Assembly (NCBI RefSeq): GCF_013387475.1
Contig: NZ_VWNB01000009.1
Location: 1 to 64,000, forward strand
Origin: Mariprofundus sp. KV
GTDB taxonomy: Bacteria; Pseudomonadota; Zetaproteobacteria; Mariprofundales; Mariprofundaceae
DNA length: 64,000 nt
Direction of reading: 5' to 3'
Part shown: positions 55,602 to 64,000 of the stretch, piece by piece
Layout of the letters: every line of letters begins with the position of its first letter
How positions within the stretch are numbered: position 1 is the stretch's first letter
The notes under the pieces: generated by a model
What the model was told of the DNA's origin: nothing
Database searches by the model: none
The model's input: the letters and a program-made list of their open reading frames with translations, nothing else
Made by a program: the position numbers and the translations under genes

Positions 55602-56420
55602 CTATTTGCCTAACATGCGAGAGAAGAAACCACCGGACTTTTTGACGGCTTCGGCTTTCTTGCTTGCTTCGATAAGGATAACCGAGATGTTATCGGGGCC
55701 ACCGGCTGCGTTGGCGAGGCGGATCAACTCATCGGCTGCTTTGTTCATATCTTTACCAAAGCGGGTGAGGGTCTGTTCAATGATCTCATCGGAGACCACA
55801 TCGGTGAGGCCATCAGAGCACATCAGATAGAGGTCGCCGGGGAAGACGATGTCTTCAACAATGTCGGGATCGACACCTTTGCCTACACCAAGCGCACGGG
55901 TGACCAGATTTTTGATGGTGGAGTTGCGGGCATCTTGAGCGGTAACAAGGCCGCGACGCACCTGTTCATGGATCAGTGAGTGATCCTCGGTGACATGGGT
56001 CAGTTCACCATCACGCTGGCGGTACATGCGCGAATCACCGACATGGGCTGCGGTGATGCGATCACTGTAGAAAACGGCAGCCAGCACGGTGGTGCCCATG
56101 CCTGCACATCCGGCTTTTCTCTGTGCGGTATCATAGATTGAATCGTTGGCGTGGCGGATAGCGTTGCGCACCAGAATCGATTCACTGGTGAAGCCGGTAT
56201 CACTATCAATCTGGGCGGCAGGAATATCGAGTACTTTGGCTTTGATCTCGTTGGTGATGATCTCAACCGCCATGGCGCTGGCCACTTCACCGGCGTTGTA
56301 ACCGCCCATGCCATCAGCCAGTACGGCAATGCCGTGGCTTGGTGTGGTGCCGACAAAATCTTCATTATGTTTGCGCCGGATGCCGACATCGGTTTTGGCT
56401 AACATCTTTAATTTCATCAT
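55602..56420 (-). CDS. PP2C-type Ser/Thr protein phosphatase
   Basis: The 272 residues show the PPM metal-binding motifs: RKHNEDFVG, VLADGMGGYNAGEVAS, AAHVGDSRMYR, CSDGLTDVV and GGPDNISVIL. It lacks membrane segments. The ATG at 56420 overlaps the kinase stop (TGATG), with GGGAGG upstream. Its adjacency implies it reverses the kinase or acts on its substrates. Confidence 0.93.
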   Translation of the reverse strand: MMKLKMLAKTDVGIRRKHNEDFVGTTPSHGIAVLADGMGGYNAGEVASAMAVEIITNEIKAKVLDIPAAQIDSDTGFTSESILVRNAIRHANDSIYDTAQRKAGCAGMGTTVLAAVFYSDRITAAHVGDSRMYRQRDGELTHVTEDHSLIHEQVRRGLVTAQDARNSTIKNLVTRALGVGKGVDPDIVEDIVFPGDLYLMCSDGLTDVVSDEIIEQTLTRFGKDMNKAADELIRLANAAGGPDNISVILIEASKKAEAVKKSGGFFSRMLGK

Positions 56421-58819
56421 CAGCGGCCTCCCTGGCTTCTGCTCTGTTGCAGGCACTGCTGGATTCGCTCAAGTGCCTCACCAGCTGAGCCGATGCGATG
56501 ATCAGCTTTTTTGGCAAGCAGACTGTTTATTAGATCGGCCACACAATCGGGTGTATCGGCATTGAGCTTGCGCACATCGACATGTGGTTCTTTAGCAATT
56601 TTAAACATCAACTTGGAGATCGATTCGGCCTTGAAGGGGCGTACGCCAGCCACCATCTCATAGAGCATGACGCCGAGTGAAAAGAGATCTGAGCGGCCAT
56701 CAATCGGTTTGCCCGAGAGCTGCTCCGGTGACATGTAGGATGGAGTTCCCAGTACCGTGCCGGCCTTGCTTTTACTTGATTCGGTAATGTGGGCGATGCC
56801 GAAGTCGGTCACCTTCACCGCTTTGTTTTTCAGAATCATGATGTTGGCCGGTTTAATGTCGCGATGAATCACGCCATTGTTGTGGGCGTACTGCAGCGCT
56901 TCGGCGACCTTGGCGATAATTTTCAGGGTCGTGGGAATCGGCAGGGTTTTACCCTCTTTGGTGTAGGGGATGAGATCGATGCCATCGAGATACTCCATGG
57001 CGATGTAGGCGAGATCATGTTCATCACCGGCATCAAAGATGGTGACGATGTTGGGGTGATTGAGCATGCCGGCAATCTCAGCTTCGTGGAAGAAGCGCTC
57101 TTTCACCTCTTCCAGCTGATCAGGTTCAAACTCTTTGGAGAGGGCGAGTGTTTTGATGGCAACCTGACGGTTAATTTTAGGGTCTCTGCCCAGATAGACC
57201 GTGCCCATCGCGCCTTTACCCAGCTCGCTGACAATCTCGTAGCGGCCAAGCGTCGGTTTGTTGTCACCGCTGGCCAGCAGGCTGGAAATGCCTGCATTGG
57301 AGCCTTTGTCAGAGAGCGTGTCTCTGGCATTTTTTGCGCTGATAATGCGGGTCTGAATATCGCGGAAGGTGCTGTTGTGACCCGCCATATGCTGGTAGAC
57401 ACTGATGGCATCATCAAACTGGCGTTTACGTTCAAAGGCCAGGCCCAGGTCATAAAGAATGGCGAGCAGATCTTCATTCATCGGGCAGGTGAGGAACTTC
57501 GCATAGGCATTTTCCAGCATGCCCTGGCTTTGAAAGGAGAGACCCAGCATCTTATTGGTTTCATTGGGATCGCTAGCCGTGGTTGGCTGCTTCTCTTTGA
57601 TCACCAGGTACTGCTTAATGCTGATGCCAAGCTGCCCGATGATCAGTAGCAGACAGCATATGGCCGTCTGAATCCAGAGACTGAATGCAGATATGAAGAT
57701 ATAGCCTGTTATCAGCAGGATGAGGCTTATGGCAACCGTGGCAATGACGCCGACAAGTGGTGTGAGGCGTGGTAGCACGAGCGTCAGGTAGAGCCCGGCC
57801 AGCAGCAGTAGTGCCAACTCGGCATAGAGCGCCCAGTCAGGGCGAATCACAGACTCCTCCTTGAGGATGCTCTGCAGGCTATGGGCAGCAAACTCACTGC
57901 GAGACATGTTGGCTTTCAGTGGTGTATCTACGCCGTTGGCTGAACTGCCAATGAGTACGATTTTACCTTTGAAAAGGTTGGCGGGGATTTCGTCGGCAAG
58001 AAGCTGGGATAAGTTGTATCTTGTGAAGCTGTTGCCGCTGCTGTCTGCATGAAAGGCAGGGAAAATACGCAGTTGCTGATCGGTCGCCACATTGATTGCA
58101 CCGAGCTCTATATCGGTGCCGAGATTCAGGCGTACGTCACTTAAGGGGATGTTCATCGTTCCGGCAGCAAGCGTAAGCACCATGGATGGATAATACAGGC
58201 CTGAAAAGGTGACGGCCAAAGGCAGTGAGCGAAGTGTCTCATCCTGATTGAGCGGGAAATTGAAGTGGCCAAAGCCTGCAGCGCCCTCTGAGAGCGTGTT
58301 GTAGGGGTGGCGAAGCATAAAAGCATGCATTGGTGAAGCGCTGCTATTGCTGAAGTTGATCTGCCTGATAGCCGAACGGCGGATATAGTTAGGGGCGAGG
58401 ATGTTGCTGCGGTTCTCTTCACTGGCGAATTCGAAAAAGAGCGGTAGCAGCACATTGCCGGCCTGATGCACCTTTTCTGCCAGCATGTCATGCTGTGTGG
58501 TCTCATTCAGCGTGGCAGGTTTCAATTCGGCCTCACTGTAGAGCATGTCCAGCGCAATCAGTTTGGCACCGGCATTGGAGAGCTTCTCTATGGTTGCGGC
58601 AATGCTGCTCTGGGGAGTCTGGTCATTGCCTTTTGAATCAACGTTAACAAGTACAATGCGATCATCTGCCGGCAGACTGTTTGTGCTGGCGGTAAAATCA
58701 TAGAGGGCGTTATCAACGCTCTGCAAAGGGGAGAGTTGGCTGCTGTATCCGACCAGAACAAGTAACGAAACCAGGACACCAACAGACCAGTCCGATTTCC
58801 AGATAGTGCCATAGTTCAA
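56420..58819 (-). CDS. CHASE2-sensor Ser/Thr protein kinase
   Basis: The 799 residues have an N-terminal membrane helix, an extracytoplasmic CHASE2 domain (about 40-330; VLVNVDSKGNDQTPQSSI, ALDMLYSEAELKP, KGKIVLIGSSANGVDTPLKA), a cluster of three membrane helices (about 338-415), a helical linker, and a Hanks-type kinase domain (about 525-790). Kinase features are GKGAMGTVYLGRD, VAIKTL, HRDIKPANIMILK, DFGIAH and the APE-like SPEQLSG. The start is a TTG with AGGGG upstream. It probably senses an envelope or environmental signal. Confidence 0.93.
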   Translation of the reverse strand: MNYGTIWKSDWSVGVLVSLLVLVGYSSQLSPLQSVDNALYDFTASTNSLPADDRIVLVNVDSKGNDQTPQSSIAATIEKLSNAGAKLIALDMLYSEAELKPATLNETTQHDMLAEKVHQAGNVLLPLFFEFASEENRSNILAPNYIRRSAIRQINFSNSSASPMHAFMLRHPYNTLSEGAAGFGHFNFPLNQDETLRSLPLAVTFSGLYYPSMVLTLAAGTMNIPLSDVRLNLGTDIELGAINVATDQQLRIFPAFHADSSGNSFTRYNLSQLLADEIPANLFKGKIVLIGSSANGVDTPLKANMSRSEFAAHSLQSILKEESVIRPDWALYAELALLLLAGLYLTLVLPRLTPLVGVIATVAISLILLITGYIFISAFSLWIQTAICCLLLIIGQLGISIKQYLVIKEKQPTTASDPNETNKMLGLSFQSQGMLENAYAKFLTCPMNEDLLAILYDLGLAFERKRQFDDAISVYQHMAGHNSTFRDIQTRIISAKNARDTLSDKGSNAGISSLLASGDNKPTLGRYEIVSELGKGAMGTVYLGRDPKINRQVAIKTLALSKEFEPDQLEEVKERFFHEAEIAGMLNHPNIVTIFDAGDEHDLAYIAMEYLDGIDLIPYTKEGKTLPIPTTLKIIAKVAEALQYAHNNGVIHRDIKPANIMILKNKAVKVTDFGIAHITESSKSKAGTVLGTPSYMSPEQLSGKPIDGRSDLFSLGVMLYEMVAGVRPFKAESISKLMFKIAKEPHVDVRKLNADTPDCVADLINSLLAKKADHRIGSAGEALERIQQCLQQSRSQGGR

Positions 58820-59143: not shown

Positions 59144-59219
59144 TCCCCGATAGTTCAGTTGGTAGAACGGTGGACTGTTAATCCATATGTCGCAGGTTCG
59201 AGTCCTGCTCGGGGAGCCA
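59144..59219 (+). tRNA. tRNA-Asn (GUU anticodon)
   Basis: 76 nt with CCA. The acceptor TCCCCGA pairs with TCGGGGA, the anticodon loop is CTGTTAA with stem TGGA/TCCA, and the T arm contains GGTTCGAGTCC. It has its own promoter-like sequence and terminator. Confidence 0.96.
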
Positions 59220-59224
59220 CATAC

Positions 59225-59252
59225 AAAGGCCGGCACATTGCCGGCCTTTTTT
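59225..59252 (+). terminator. Terminator of tRNA-Asn
   Basis: A perfect stem AAAGGCCGGC/GCCGGCCTTT with a 5-nt loop running into TTTT. Confidence 0.9.
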
Positions 59253-59632
59253 CGTTTTGGGCAGAGATGGTGTGCAGGCGAATGTGTTTCAATGTTGTCT
59301 CTTTTTTCGGGCAGTTTATGCCTGTATGTCGAATCTCCCGGGTGGCCGGTTTGTTTTAAGCATGGTTGTGAAATAGTTCACGCGATCTGCGCGCGCTCCC
59401 TTATACTGTTGCCGCGAATATATTGGGGAGTTTGTTGTGGCTGGTCAGGCCGTGGCCTGCTGCCGGCAGGCTGGTAAAATTTACGCTTCAATAACAGTAG
59501 TATAAAAGGGTTTTTCCCCGTATTTGCCTCCTTGATAATGGAGGGGTAAGCGGCTACTGTACGTTCGTTAGATTTCTGTAATGACGGGAAGCAGGGCAGA
59601 TCTATTTTTTTAAGCAGTATGGGACGGGAACT
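59253..59632 (+). promoter_or_regulatory. 380 bp leader/spacer before the BcsB-like gene
   Basis: No coding sequence is seen. It holds several palindromes: GTGAA/TTCAC, CAGGCC/GGCCTG and CTGCCGGCAG close together, and CCTCC/GGAGG further on. It also has two TATA-like hexamers (TATACT near 59404, TATAAA near 59500). This suggests a regulated, possibly structured leader. It does not fit a riboswitch class I know. Confidence 0.35.
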
Positions 59633-62086
59633 ATGAAAGCTTACTTTTGGCTCACAAAAAAACTGAATAATATATTGATATTTAGCTCACTATTGTTGCT
59701 GCTGGGTGCTTTAGTCCCTGCATCTGCAGGGGCGGCAATTGGTGACCGTCTGGAGGTTGCATCCGGCGGAGCGATGCTTTACGCCGGTCCTGCATCCTCT
59801 GCGGCCAGGGTTTCGCGCCTTGCCAGTGGTGATCAGATGGTGGAGATGGAGCGCCAGGGTGGCTGGGTTTTCGTCTCGGTGAAACAGAGTGGCGCACAGG
59901 GCTGGGTTGACTCCAGCGCCGTACGTAAGGCGGTGATGAAGCCCCGACCTGTTGAGAAGAGCCGGGTAATCAAGAAAGGTAAAACAGTTGTTGTGAAGAA
60001 GATTGCCGAGACGCCGATCAAGGTTCCTGATCTGCCGGTAGTTACCCGCACTGTTGCGCTTAAAGAGCTGGGTTATCGTAAGGGCATCATGTTTGAAGGG
60101 GCCTATATCCACTCCAAGACCGTCTTCTTCGATGCGCCTATGGACTCGCAGATCGCGTATGGATCTTTCAAGATGCTTTTCCGGGCCACTCCTACGTTGC
60201 ATAAGCTGGCCAACATTCGAGTATCTATTAATGACATGCCCTATAAACAGATCAATATTCCTTCCGGTGAAGGTCTGCATGAGATGGATGTGCTGCTGCC
60301 CTCATCTGCATTTCGCGGCAAACTGGTTAAGGTCACCATTGTCACTTCGCTGCCTGTCTCCGATGACCGCTGCTTTGATGACCGTCTGAACGATGTCTTC
60401 CTGCATGTGCTGCCGGAATCAACACTGAATATCTCCTATCAGCCGGTGGAGAAGTCCATCCGTGATGCCTGGCGCCTGCTGCCGCAGGATGTGACCATCA
60501 GTCTCTCCAGTGGCGCCCTGGGCAAGAGTCAGTTTGCTTCAGCGCTGGCGCTGATGGCGATGCTGGTTGATAACGAGAAGCGTGTGAAGATCGTTCGTCT
60601 GCCAGAGGTTGGTAATATTGTTATTGCTCCGAAGTCGGAGATCGAGTCGCTGATTCGCCAGAAGCTGCTGCTTCAGGATGATGGTAAGCCGATGGCTGAG
60701 GCCGGAGAGTCTCTGGATCATGTCAGTAATCTGGCCCTGATGCGTCTGCCGAACCGTTCCGTACTCGTGGTGACTGATCCTTATGATATTCAGCCGATGT
60801 ATCTGCTTAATGATGCCTGGAAACTGACCGCTGCAGGCGATCACTACCGCGTCTTCAAGCCTGATAATCTTCTGGCCTACAGTGAAATGCTGGGTACAGA
60901 GGGGGATGCCGGTTACTACTCGTTGCCACTGGATAAGCTGGGTATGAATCTGGAAGCCAAGGCTCTGACCCGCGAGGTAAGCTGGCAGACTATTATAAGC
61001 CCGTTTGTGGTTCCTCTGGGGACGCGTCCGGACTTTATGCTGTTGAATGTGGTGGCGCCCGTTCGCTGGGAGAAAGACCCTACCTATGAGCTTTATGTAT
61101 TCCTTAATGATGTACTGGTGAAATCTGCCCGTCTTGAGAATACAGGCCTGAAACAGCAGTTTACCATTAACCTGCCAACTGAGTATCAGAAGCAGTACAA
61201 CGATATTCGTGTGGTGGTTCAGCATGATATTGAGATTGGTGATTGCCGTGCTGTTATGCCGCACGACTATGTTCAGGTTACGCCTGACAGTGCGCTGGTT
61301 GTGAAGCGTGAAGAGAGTGCAGCTCCGAAGAAATTCTCTGATCTCTCGCGTTACTTCCTGCACGGTTTCGACACCTATCTCTCCTTCGATTATCTCGAGA
61401 AACCTGAGCATGTGCTGCAGTTGATGGCGCGTTTGGCAGCTGATTTCCCGCTGATGATCGACCACACGCGTGTTCATTTTGTCGAGAAGGGATCCATGCT
61501 TAAACCTGAAGGGCCATTCGTGGCGGTTGGTAACTTCCCGCTCAGCGAAGAGATCGAAGCACCTGTGCGTTTTGATCAGGGGCGTGTGAAAATTGTCTCT
61601 CCTGGCGGTGAGTCCTATTTCGATGTCAACAGACTACCCAATATTACAGTGGCTGAGATTGCCAAGTCGTTCGACTCTTATGGACTCTGGATCAATCCAT
61701 CTGACTCTGTTGAAGGGCCTCCGATGATTGAGAGGATTGAGCTGGCAGAGGATGACGTCGCCTTTATCGATGCCAACGGTGTCATCAAAACCATGGATAG
61801 CAGTGAGCCATCACTGGCTCAGGTCTACTACCCTGATGTTGAGAACTGGTTCGATGTGCTCGGTAAATACCGTTTCTGGTTGATGGTGCTGTTGTGGTTC
61901 CTGCTGACGATGGTTGTGGTATACCTCTACCGTATGTCCAGAGCCAACAAGATGGCGCGTGAAGAGGATGATGCGCTCTATCAGGAAGAGGAAGCCAGAA
62001 TGCAGGGTGGGCATGCAGCGCACCTGCATGAAGATCATACCATCCATCCAACCGATTCCCTGGATCATCTTGATGAGAAAAGGTGA
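59633..62086 (+). CDS. bcsB: BcsB-like exopolysaccharide synthase regulatory subunit with SH3 domain
   Basis: The 817 residues begin with a signal peptide (about 1-34), then a bacterial SH3 domain (about 36-98; LEVASGGAMLYAGPASSAAR and GGWVFVSVKQ-GAQGWVDSSA). A BcsB-type beta-rich core follows about 150-730 (VSINDMPYKQINIPSG, LPVSDDRCFDDRLND, and DCRAVMPHDYVQ). A C-terminal membrane helix near 745-765 ends in an acidic, His-rich tail. BcsB guides cellulose through the periplasm. The SH3 addition is unusual and could bind peptidoglycan. The next gene encodes a cellulose-synthase-like enzyme 8 nt later. Confidence 0.85.
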   Translation: MKAYFWLTKKLNNILIFSSLLLLLGALVPASAGAAIGDRLEVASGGAMLYAGPASSAARVSRLASGDQMVEMERQGGWVFVSVKQSGAQGWVDSSAVRKAVMKPRPVEKSRVIKKGKTVVVKKIAETPIKVPDLPVVTRTVALKELGYRKGIMFEGAYIHSKTVFFDAPMDSQIAYGSFKMLFRATPTLHKLANIRVSINDMPYKQINIPSGEGLHEMDVLLPSSAFRGKLVKVTIVTSLPVSDDRCFDDRLNDVFLHVLPESTLNISYQPVEKSIRDAWRLLPQDVTISLSSGALGKSQFASALALMAMLVDNEKRVKIVRLPEVGNIVIAPKSEIESLIRQKLLLQDDGKPMAEAGESLDHVSNLALMRLPNRSVLVVTDPYDIQPMYLLNDAWKLTAAGDHYRVFKPDNLLAYSEMLGTEGDAGYYSLPLDKLGMNLEAKALTREVSWQTIISPFVVPLGTRPDFMLLNVVAPVRWEKDPTYELYVFLNDVLVKSARLENTGLKQQFTINLPTEYQKQYNDIRVVVQHDIEIGDCRAVMPHDYVQVTPDSALVVKREESAAPKKFSDLSRYFLHGFDTYLSFDYLEKPEHVLQLMARLAADFPLMIDHTRVHFVEKGSMLKPEGPFVAVGNFPLSEEIEAPVRFDQGRVKIVSPGGESYFDVNRLPNITVAEIAKSFDSYGLWINPSDSVEGPPMIERIELAEDDVAFIDANGVIKTMDSSEPSLAQVYYPDVENWFDVLGKYRFWLMVLLWFLLTMVVVYLYRMSRANKMAREEDDALYQEEEARMQGGHAAHLHEDHTIHPTDSLDHLDEKR

Positions 62087-62094
62087 TTTGAGGT

Positions 62095-64000
62095 ATGAGC
62101 CAGCCGGAAGCGGGCGCTAAACTCCGCATTGGTGAACTGCTGGTGAGCCGCGGGCTCATCAGCAGTGACCAGTTGCAGGAGGCGCTTGATCAGCAGCAGG
62201 CGGAGGGAGGACGGCTTGGAGATATCCTGCTTTCCCGCCGTGCCATCACAACTGTCGCATTTTACGATGCCCTGACAGATCACTTCCGTCGCGGACGGAT
62301 TGGTGATCTGCTGGTTGAGAGGGAGCTGATCACTGAGTACCAGCTACAGGATATTCTTGAAACCCAGAAGCAGTGGGGTACTCGCTTTGGTGACATTATT
62401 CTGGCCAAGGGGTTGGTGAAACCCTTCTTTCTGAGTCAGGTTCTGGCCGATCACTTCGATAAACCGAATATCGATATGCTTAAAGAGAGGCTGGACACGA
62501 GCATTCTTGATCGTGACAACCTCTCCACCTATTCAGAGAACCTGTTTGTGCCGTGGCGCAGAGAGAATGGATTACTGAAGGTGGCCGTGGTTGATGTCAC
62601 CCCTGAGCTGTTACAGATCGTCGACCGTGTGGTTGGCGAGCCGTTTGATTTTGTTATCACTTCAAAATTTGACATTATCTGGACGCTGCAGGAGATCGGT
62701 AATCAGTTCTATACGGAAAAAGCTGTACATGAGCTTGCCAATATTATGCCGCAGTTCTCAGCCAGTGAGGTGTTTACGCCCAGACAGCTGATCTTTGTCT
62801 TTATCTGGATGACCCTGAGTGTGGCTGCACTGGCACTCTGGCCGATCAACTCCATCATTGCCCTGAATCTGGCGATTTCGATCTTCCTGCTGCTCAACTT
62901 TGCGCTACGTATGGTGTTGACCTGGGTGGGTGGCGATAAGTACTTTGATAATCTGGTAACCGATGAAGAGGTGAATGCGATTGATGAGCGGACGCTGCCG
63001 GTCTACTCCATTCTGCTGCCAATGTACCATGAGTCGGCAACACTGCCGAATATCGCACAGGCACTTCGCTCCCTCGATTACCCGCTCTCCAAGCTCGATA
63101 TTAAACTGATTCTTGAGCAGGATGATGATGAGACTATTGAGACGGCAAAAGAGCTCGGTCTTGAGGGAATCTTTGAGATTATCCGTGTGCCGGAGTCATT
63201 CCCGAGAACCAAACCCAAAGCGTGTAACTATGCCCTGCACTTCTGCCGAGGTGAGCTTGCCACAATTTACGATGGTGAGGATGCACCGGAGCCTGATCAG
63301 CTGAAAAAGGTTGTGATCGCCTTCCAGAAAGCTCCCGAGAATACGGCGGTGATTCAGGCCAGGCTCAACTACTTTAATGTGGCAGAGAACTGGCTGACCC
63401 GTATGTTCACCATGGAGTACTCCCTCTGGTTTGATTTCTATCTGCCTGCTCTTGATGCACTGCGCATTCCAATTCCGCTTGGTGGCACCTCCAACCACTT
63501 CAAGATGAATGTTCTGCGTGAAATGCAGGGCTGGGATCCCTATAACGTAACCGAGGATTGCGATCTTGGCGTGCGTCTGACCCAGCGTTTCTATCGTGTG
63601 GGTGTTGTGAATTCGACCACCTATGAAGAGGCCAACAACTCCATTCCTAACTGGATTCGCCAGCGTTCGCGCTGGTTGAAGGGTTATATGCAGAGTTATC
63701 TGGTGCATATGCGCGCGCCGCTAAAACTCTATGGCGAGTTGGGTCATATCGGCTTCTGGGGGTTCCAGTTCTTTATCGGCGGAACGATTGTGAGTGCGCT
63801 GGTGACCCCGATCCTGTTCCTCATGTATATCCTCTGGCTGATCACGCAGACGATGGTGTTTGACCCCTATTTCCCCTCCATGGTGCTCTACATCAATCTG
63901 TTTAATCTGCTTATCGCCAATGGTTTCCTGATCTACCTGTTTATGCTCAGTGGCTTTAAACGCAGATATTTCGATCTGATTCCATGGGCTCTTACCGTTC
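62095..64000 (+). CDS. CesA-like glycosyltransferase 2 with tandem MshEN-type domains (partial)
   Basis: 635 codons are visible; the gene runs off the window. Residues about 10-125 contain four related motifs: RIGELLVSRGLISSDQL, RLGDILLSRRAIT, RIGDLLVERELITEYQL and RFGDIILAKGLVK. These form two MshEN (T2SSE-N) domains, a fold known to bind c-di-GMP. Two membrane helices (about 225-275) precede a processive GT2 core: LLPMYHES, EQDDDE (near 343), RTKPKACNYAL, DGEDAPEPDQL, TEDCDLG (near 485) and QRSRWLKG (near 522), then more membrane helices. No PilZ domain is seen in the visible part. The ATG has a GAGG just upstream. Confidence 0.9.
   Translation, partial: MSQPEAGAKLRIGELLVSRGLISSDQLQEALDQQQAEGGRLGDILLSRRAITTVAFYDALTDHFRRGRIGDLLVERELITEYQLQDILETQKQWGTRFGDIILAKGLVKPFFLSQVLADHFDKPNIDMLKERLDTSILDRDNLSTYSENLFVPWRRENGLLKVAVVDVTPELLQIVDRVVGEPFDFVITSKFDIIWTLQEIGNQFYTEKAVHELANIMPQFSASEVFTPRQLIFVFIWMTLSVAALALWPINSIIALNLAISIFLLLNFALRMVLTWVGGDKYFDNLVTDEEVNAIDERTLPVYSILLPMYHESATLPNIAQALRSLDYPLSKLDIKLILEQDDDETIETAKELGLEGIFEIIRVPESFPRTKPKACNYALHFCRGELATIYDGEDAPEPDQLKKVVIAFQKAPENTAVIQARLNYFNVAENWLTRMFTMEYSLWFDFYLPALDALRIPIPLGGTSNHFKMNVLREMQGWDPYNVTEDCDLGVRLTQRFYRVGVVNSTTYEEANNSIPNWIRQRSRWLKGYMQSYLVHMRAPLKLYGELGHIGFWGFQFFIGGTIVSALVTPILFLMYILWLITQTMVFDPYFPSMVLYINLFNLLIANGFLIYLFMLSGFKRRYFDLIPWALTV

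Follow-up and report, generated by a model that had tools for sequence, protein, structure and literature searches.

The window analysed in this work is a 64,000-nucleotide stretch of DNA from a Mariprofundus species, which begins at the first base of a 141,366-base contig in a 2.53 Mb genome (99.95% complete), and the remainder of the operon that begins near its end is readable past the window end. Two real and intact open reading frames, starting at positions 59633 and 62095 (Table 1), open a run of ten genes, viz. sfz1 (BcsB), sfz2 (MshEN-GT2), sfz3 (a 499-aa polytopic membrane protein whose start overlaps the sfz2 stop, ATGA), sfz4 (a GH113 hydrolase; PF22612, E=1.5e-43), sfz5 (321 aa with a signal peptide), sfz6 (1507 aa, containing multiple SH3_3 domains plus a CotH domain), and genes for an ATP/ADP antiporter, a mannose-1-phosphate guanylyltransferase/phosphomannose isomerase (ManC), an AMIN-amidase and an MsbA-type ABC protein. 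Sfz3 matched no Pfam or NCBIfam family, its hydropathy indicating several TM segments only, and no BcsC, BcsZ or NfrA-like gene is found in the ten-gene run. Further upstream in the window (55602-58819, minus strand), two neighbouring genes were read by eye, from the translation, as encoding a phosphatase of the PP2C type and, apparently, a sensor Ser/Thr kinase of the CHASE2 type (799 aa).

Table 1. Features of the sfz1-sfz2 region (window coordinates; residue numbers refer to the encoded protein).
Feature	Position	Strand	Basis or remark
tRNA-Asn(GTT)	59144..59219	+	directly upstream of leader; not part of the machine
Terminator of tRNA-Asn	59225-59249		strong hairpin, the "palindrome" ascribed to the leader
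sfz1 leader	59250..59632	+	last ~130 nt alone similar in sister species
sfz1, BcsB-like periplasmic subunit, 817 aa	59633..62086	+	PF03170; ortholog of PV-1 sfz1, 60%
SH3b domain of Sfz1, aa 48-97	59774..59923	+	weak SH3_3 match and conservation
sfz2, predicted MshEN-GT2 processive synthase	62095..64000	+	runs on to contig position 64164, 689 aa in total
MshEN_N unit A, aa 11-63	62125..62283	+	NF053729, key residues, four-helix bundle; half-motifs at 11, 40
MshEN_N unit B, aa 68-120	62296..62454	+	half-motifs at 68, 97; matches MshE crystal sequence 5htl
MshEN_C subdomain, aa 126-201	62470..62697	+	PF05157; alpha/beta fold in model
Cytoplasmic GT2 domain, aa 304-541	63004..63717	+	TED, DxD, QxxRW; between TM helices 229-279 and 542-655

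Twisted stalks figure in the discussion of biomarkers for iron oxidation by microbes, and the literature treats the genes behind them as an unresolved matter (PMC8250860). A candidate stalk cluster, sfz1-sfz6, has been reported from the Zetaproteobacteria (Koeksoy 2021, PMC8250860), where its presence correlates with the stalk phenotype in 11 isolates, and the same cluster was earlier named the xag-like cassette (Kato 2015, PMC4643136). The locus described here has the same genes, gene order, protein lengths and catalytic motif numbers as the published cluster, including its flanking cassette (antiporter, phosphomannose isomerase, amidase and MsbA), with all ten genes (sfz1-6 and the four cassette genes) in the published order. 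The six sfz genes are syntenic 1:1 and in identical order in PV-1, ET2 and P3, and the protein identities to PV-1, from Sfz1 to Sfz6, are 60, 77, 67, 57, 49 and 43%. When an sfz cluster is defined as six genes in shared order with at least 50-70% identity among stalk-formers, the predicted products of this locus conform to the definition in order and identity, those of sfz5 and sfz6 lying slightly below 50% to PV-1. Judged from the gene content, the sfz (stalk formation in Zetaproteobacteria) operon of this Mariprofundus species begins in this region of the window. An initial sequence-only reading of the window had guessed, in case the host was an iron oxidiser, at a role in stalk or sheath fibre production; the guess, made without citation, coincides with the published cluster and appears to be right, but it is not new.

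The same reading had held that a long palindrome-rich leader before sfz1 fits regulated expression. The one strong inverted repeat found there is the terminator of tRNA-Asn, the remainder of the leader is no more stable than shuffled sequences (folding z-score -0.34), an Rfam search of the leader identified no riboswitch, and the leader aligns poorly beyond sister species. A palindrome-rich regulated leader was accordingly rejected, and the case for regulation gains nothing from this segment.

The product of sfz1 shows both characteristics by which the BcsB family is recognised, viz. the PF03170 architecture (E=4e-16) and a C-terminal TM helix (aa 745-769), and hydropathy additionally places a signal or TM segment at its N-terminus (aa 10-38); a PDB sequence search with this protein gave no match. 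The extra SH3 domain that had been ascribed to it matches SH3_3 weakly (E=9e-5, 23 bits, below the Pfam cut-off of 27), but it lies in a genus-conserved segment, which is kept in those compared Mariprofundus Sfz1 copies whose N-terminus is complete, as well as in G038, a genome from another family of the same order. SH3_3 is matched by 7/17 members, and the segment is absent from Thiobacillus and alphaproteobacterial BcsB relatives. In PV-1 a shorter second sfz1-like BcsB gene (L035:3779-5536; 586 aa) without the SH3 segment lies directly upstream of sfz1 and represents a partial duplication.

The N-terminal region of Sfz2 is matched in two stretches by NF053729, the curated NCBIfam model for the c-di-GMP domain of MshE (111 bits vs a cut-off of 38, E=1.4e-32), well above chance level. 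Each MshEN_N unit comprises 53 residues, and the RxG half-motifs reproduce exactly the 24 + 5 + 24 spacing of MshE, i.e., the two 24-residue motifs and 5-residue spacer that characterise this receptor; the PDB matches of the protein include MshE (5htl) and the c-di-GMP domains of PilF. The two N-terminal MshEN-type domains with four RxGxxL-type motifs that had been noticed from the letters alone are thus borne out. The catalytic motifs of the glycosyltransferase (TED 486-488, DxD 488-490, QxxRW 523-527) carry the same residue numbers as those reported for Sfz2 (PMC8250860). A confident AF2 model (pLDDT 87.5) consists of two four-helix bundles, an alpha/beta subdomain, a pair of TM helices, the GT domain, more TM helices and a disordered tail, and its Foldseek matches include hyaluronan synthases and, among the best, BcsA. 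A PilZ domain in the then unseen C-terminus, which would have spoken against the sequence-only reading, is absent from the full 689-aa protein, where the last TM helix is followed only by the mostly disordered tail of ~30 aa. Eight PilZ domains, all on other contigs, and 26 GGDEF matches are present in the genome. The rest of the operon, which that reading had proposed to examine for an outer-membrane porin, a hydrolase and PilZ, contains a hydrolase (the GH113 protein Sfz4) and a predicted outer-membrane barrel (Sfz5) and lacks PilZ.

The ligand contacts of MshE can be followed through 20 Sfz2 orthologs. The equivalents of Gly11, Gly40 and Gln32 do not vary in either unit (20/20), and Arg9/Arg38 and the stacking Leu positions show either no change or conservative substitutions. 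The equivalent of Gln61, which closes the second half-motif, is His in 20/20 orthologs in unit B and in 18/20 in unit A. The turn glycines Gly18/Gly47 vary among orthologs, and two of them are replaced in this species by R49 and E77. Hence, of the R, L, G, L, L, Q contacts of each motif, R, G and L are kept or conservative, and Q is either invariant (Gln32) or a conserved His (Gln61). Loss of key MshEN residues had been named beforehand as an outcome that would tell against a receptor; the glycines and Gln32 have not been lost, whereas Gln61 and the turn glycines depart from MshE. Among 80 named relatives, both base-contacting glycines of the conserved unit are kept in 5/5 Mariprofundus (window protein included), 10/10 Bacillota and 12/14 mixed other sequences, in 7/18 from Alphaproteobacteria and in 0/30 from Bacteroidota, and the ligand residues are kept in most Chloroflexota-type relatives. 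Bacteroidota mostly lack c-di-GMP, and the loss of the motif in this phylum therefore fits a site that is kept for its ligand, as a correlation and not as a sign of binding. Most outside relatives with the motif have one MshEN unit, Mariprofundus has two, and G038 has three (six half-motifs; L021/L126).

Different interpretations of this N-terminal region have to be weighed. In the original description of the cluster it was assigned to InterPro IPR007831 and read as a T2SS domain resembling EpsE that might function in translocation, a role which the authors themselves called questionable, and short RxxxR and RxxD motifs of Sfz2 were given for c-di-GMP (PMC8250860). The assignment is favoured by MshEN being the N-terminal domain of such ATPases; however, the RxxxR motif at 522-526 shares residues with the catalytic QxxRW, and an EpsE-like ATPase was rejected because no ATPase domain is present and the match stops at aa ~201, to be followed by TM helices and GT2, making this interpretation exceedingly improbable. 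It is distinctly unlikely that the MshEN units are structural relics that do not bind c-di-GMP, in a synthase that is constitutive or regulated through its expression. Such relics would account for the change of Gln61 to His in both units, the loss, in this species, of a turn glycine (the Gly18 or Gly47 equivalent) from one of the halves of either unit, and the loss of the motif from an enzyme that is otherwise kept in many relatives from Alphaproteobacteria and in all those examined from Bacteroidota. His does not belong to the relaxed motif that Wang et al. give for the Gln61 position (PMC5013675). However, within Mariprofundus the base-contacting glycines, Gln32 and the hydrophobic stacking positions are invariant or conservative, the key positions are more conserved than the rest of the region (0.85 vs 0.66), the unit has been duplicated, and triplicated in G038, rather than decaying, and in MshE single changes of Arg9 or Gln32 cost at most 5-fold (PMC5013675). 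The comparisons thus support a reassignment of the Sfz2 N-terminus from an EpsE-like domain to a predicted tandem MshEN c-di-GMP receptor, and the proposal that c-di-GMP control is exerted through a receptor other than PilZ is supported at the sequence level by the tandem MshEN units and the lack of PilZ.

Fusions of MshEN to glycosyltransferases were already known (PMC5013675), and the sfz cluster itself is published. What is new here is the reassignment of the Sfz2 N-terminus, for which a literature search found no paper, accompanied by further observations on Sfz5, Sfz4 and the division into two clades described below; the available portions of the sfz papers (PMC8250860, PMC4643136) recognise neither the tandem MshEN in Sfz2 nor the SH3 in Sfz1, the GH113 name for Sfz4 or the Sfz5 barrel. 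The MshEN reading makes a vague connection to c-di-GMP directly testable with one soluble domain of ~200 aa, one ligand and one enzyme.

Several known systems resemble the sfz machine in part. NfrB of E. coli, for which c-di-GMP binding through MshEN has been demonstrated and is required (PMC8669469, PMC8669472), is an MshEN-switched GT2 synthase, as Sfz2 is proposed to be, and a BcsB homolog is clustered in Achromobacter. However, the MshEN of NfrB is C-terminal and single, whereas that of Sfz2 is N-terminal and tandem (positions 474-631 of the profile correspond to Sfz2 aa 59-216), and the sfz operon showed no gene for a TPR porin of the NfrA type; membership of Sfz2 in the NfrB family was rejected on domain order (NfrB model 43 bits vs a cut-off of 1170). 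In Xanthomonas, XagB-XagC-XagD align in order with Sfz2-Sfz3-Sfz4 (55%, 31% and 34%), and XagA may be a barrel remotely resembling Sfz5 (hhalign 55%), whereas the Xag locus has a single MshEN unit with one imperfect half-motif and a weak BcsB-like match, and an SH3/CotH protein was not found in it. Within the best 80 relatives of Sfz2, which include no Ferriphaselus loci, profile searches located a BcsB-like gene near 62/80 and an Sfz3-like gene near most; these profiles were trained on some of the same loci, with Mucilaginibacter and other Bacteroidota loci left out of the training. BcsB, MshEN-GT2 and Sfz3 (in some cases with GH113) occur together in Alphaproteobacteria, Chloroflexota, Bacteroidota and other groups, and GT2-Sfz3-GH113 occurs in Xanthomonas; the first three constitute a widespread predicted synthase core that recurs across phyla. 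Clusters of this kind also occur in bacteria for which stalk formation is not known, so that the core machine is not specific to stalks. One such locus (L044), from the alphaproteobacterium Aurantimonas manganoxydans, whose name suggests manganese oxidation, combines BcsB, MshEN-GT2, Sfz3 and GH113 with a largely degenerate MshEN motif.

The spread of this core, and the GT2-Sfz3-GH113 genes of Xanthomonas, are points in favour of a general, Xag-like biofilm or capsule polysaccharide in place of a stalk matrix, as is a paralogous clade found in two closed genomes that may be those of the dread-formers CP-5 and CP-8. Among the tested Zetaproteobacteria, however, the cluster is restricted to the genus (G038 excepted), its published correlation with stalks also argues for a stalk matrix, and sfz1 is the sole BcsB gene of the genome, so that a general polysaccharide appears rather unlikely. 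A canonical cellulose synthase with an atypical N-terminus would share with Sfz2-Sfz1 the GT2 and BcsB partnership, the TED, DxD and QxxRW motifs and the fold of BcsA; unlike BcsA-BcsB, the sfz proteins have an N-terminal MshEN for PilZ, an SH3 on BcsB and, for BcsZ, GH113, in which the members characterised so far act as beta-mannanases. Such a synthase is very improbable: Sfz2 scores 37 bits with the CelA model (cut-off 699), and the candidate was rejected as PilZ is lacking and the ten-gene run has no BcsC/BcsZ.

We consider it likely that Sfz2 is a synthase switched by c-di-GMP through its tandem MshEN units and that the sfz machine makes the stalk matrix. Sfz2 would sit in the inner membrane as a GT2 synthase, both polymerising a polysaccharide and extruding it, with the tandem MshEN units as c-di-GMP receptors in place of the PilZ switch of BcsA; at high c-di-GMP the four-helix bundles would be bound and the synthase allosterically switched on. 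Sfz1 would take the chain in the periplasm, Sfz4 would trim the product, Sfz3 would serve as a conserved membrane partner, and the twisted iron stalk would most likely have this polymer as its organic matrix. For the outer-membrane exit the best candidate, as a prediction, is Sfz5, a protein left without an assignment in the published description (PMC8250860): the Sfz5 model (pLDDT 70) has a signal peptide and a roughly 12-stranded barrel, and its predicted fold is shared, at 13% identity, with the COG4313 channel (4rl8, E=5e-12) and the amyloid secretion pore FapF (2e-11). Sfz5 would thereby gain a likely role, that of the missing outer-membrane exit.

Strong Sfz2 matches are present in 19/23 Mariprofundus genomes and in 0/14 genomes from other genera of the family, and the Mariprofundus sequences form two supported clades in a tree. 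The stalk clade contains the window Sfz2 and those of PV-1 (G003), ET2 (G020) and P3 (G002), whereas the second clade contains two single-contig genomes (G008 and G012; 2,301,665 and 2,537,610 bases), a second cluster of ET2 (L125) and others. Between the clades Sfz2 is 66-68% identical, Sfz1 about 42% and Sfz5 about 25%, and Sfz6 lacks its N-terminal part. If G008 and G012 are the dread-formers CP-8 and CP-5, the identity of 'below 40%' given for dread-formers (PMC8250860) would not hold for Sfz2. The window genome carries the stalk-type copy only. The second, divergent sfz-type cluster is found at L125 (G020:C3, M. micogutta ET2), L123, L124 and L128; ET2, a strain of ambiguous filament/stalk morphology, carries both cluster types, and G008 and G012 the second type only. 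A stalk-type and a putative dread-type cluster can be separated in this manner, allowing the phenotype to be predicted from sequence.

A more far-reaching proposal, which combines direct gating of the stalk synthase by c-di-GMP through tandem N-terminal MshEN, exit via a FapF/COG4313-type Sfz5 and not a BcsC/NfrA-type TPR porin, beta-linked mannose in the polymer, and two paralogous machines behind the stalk and dread morphologies, is offered tentatively and is doubtful as a whole. Its beta-linked mannose is suggested because Sfz4 belongs to GH113 and a GDP-mannose gene is adjacent, and the manC-like neighbours give a hint of a mannose-containing polymer. Mannose-1-phosphate guanylyltransferase-like genes lie near the synthase, as in Mariprofundus, in 11/80 loci (L041, L046, L078, L081, L089, L094-L096 and L106-L108), a count that carries no background estimate.
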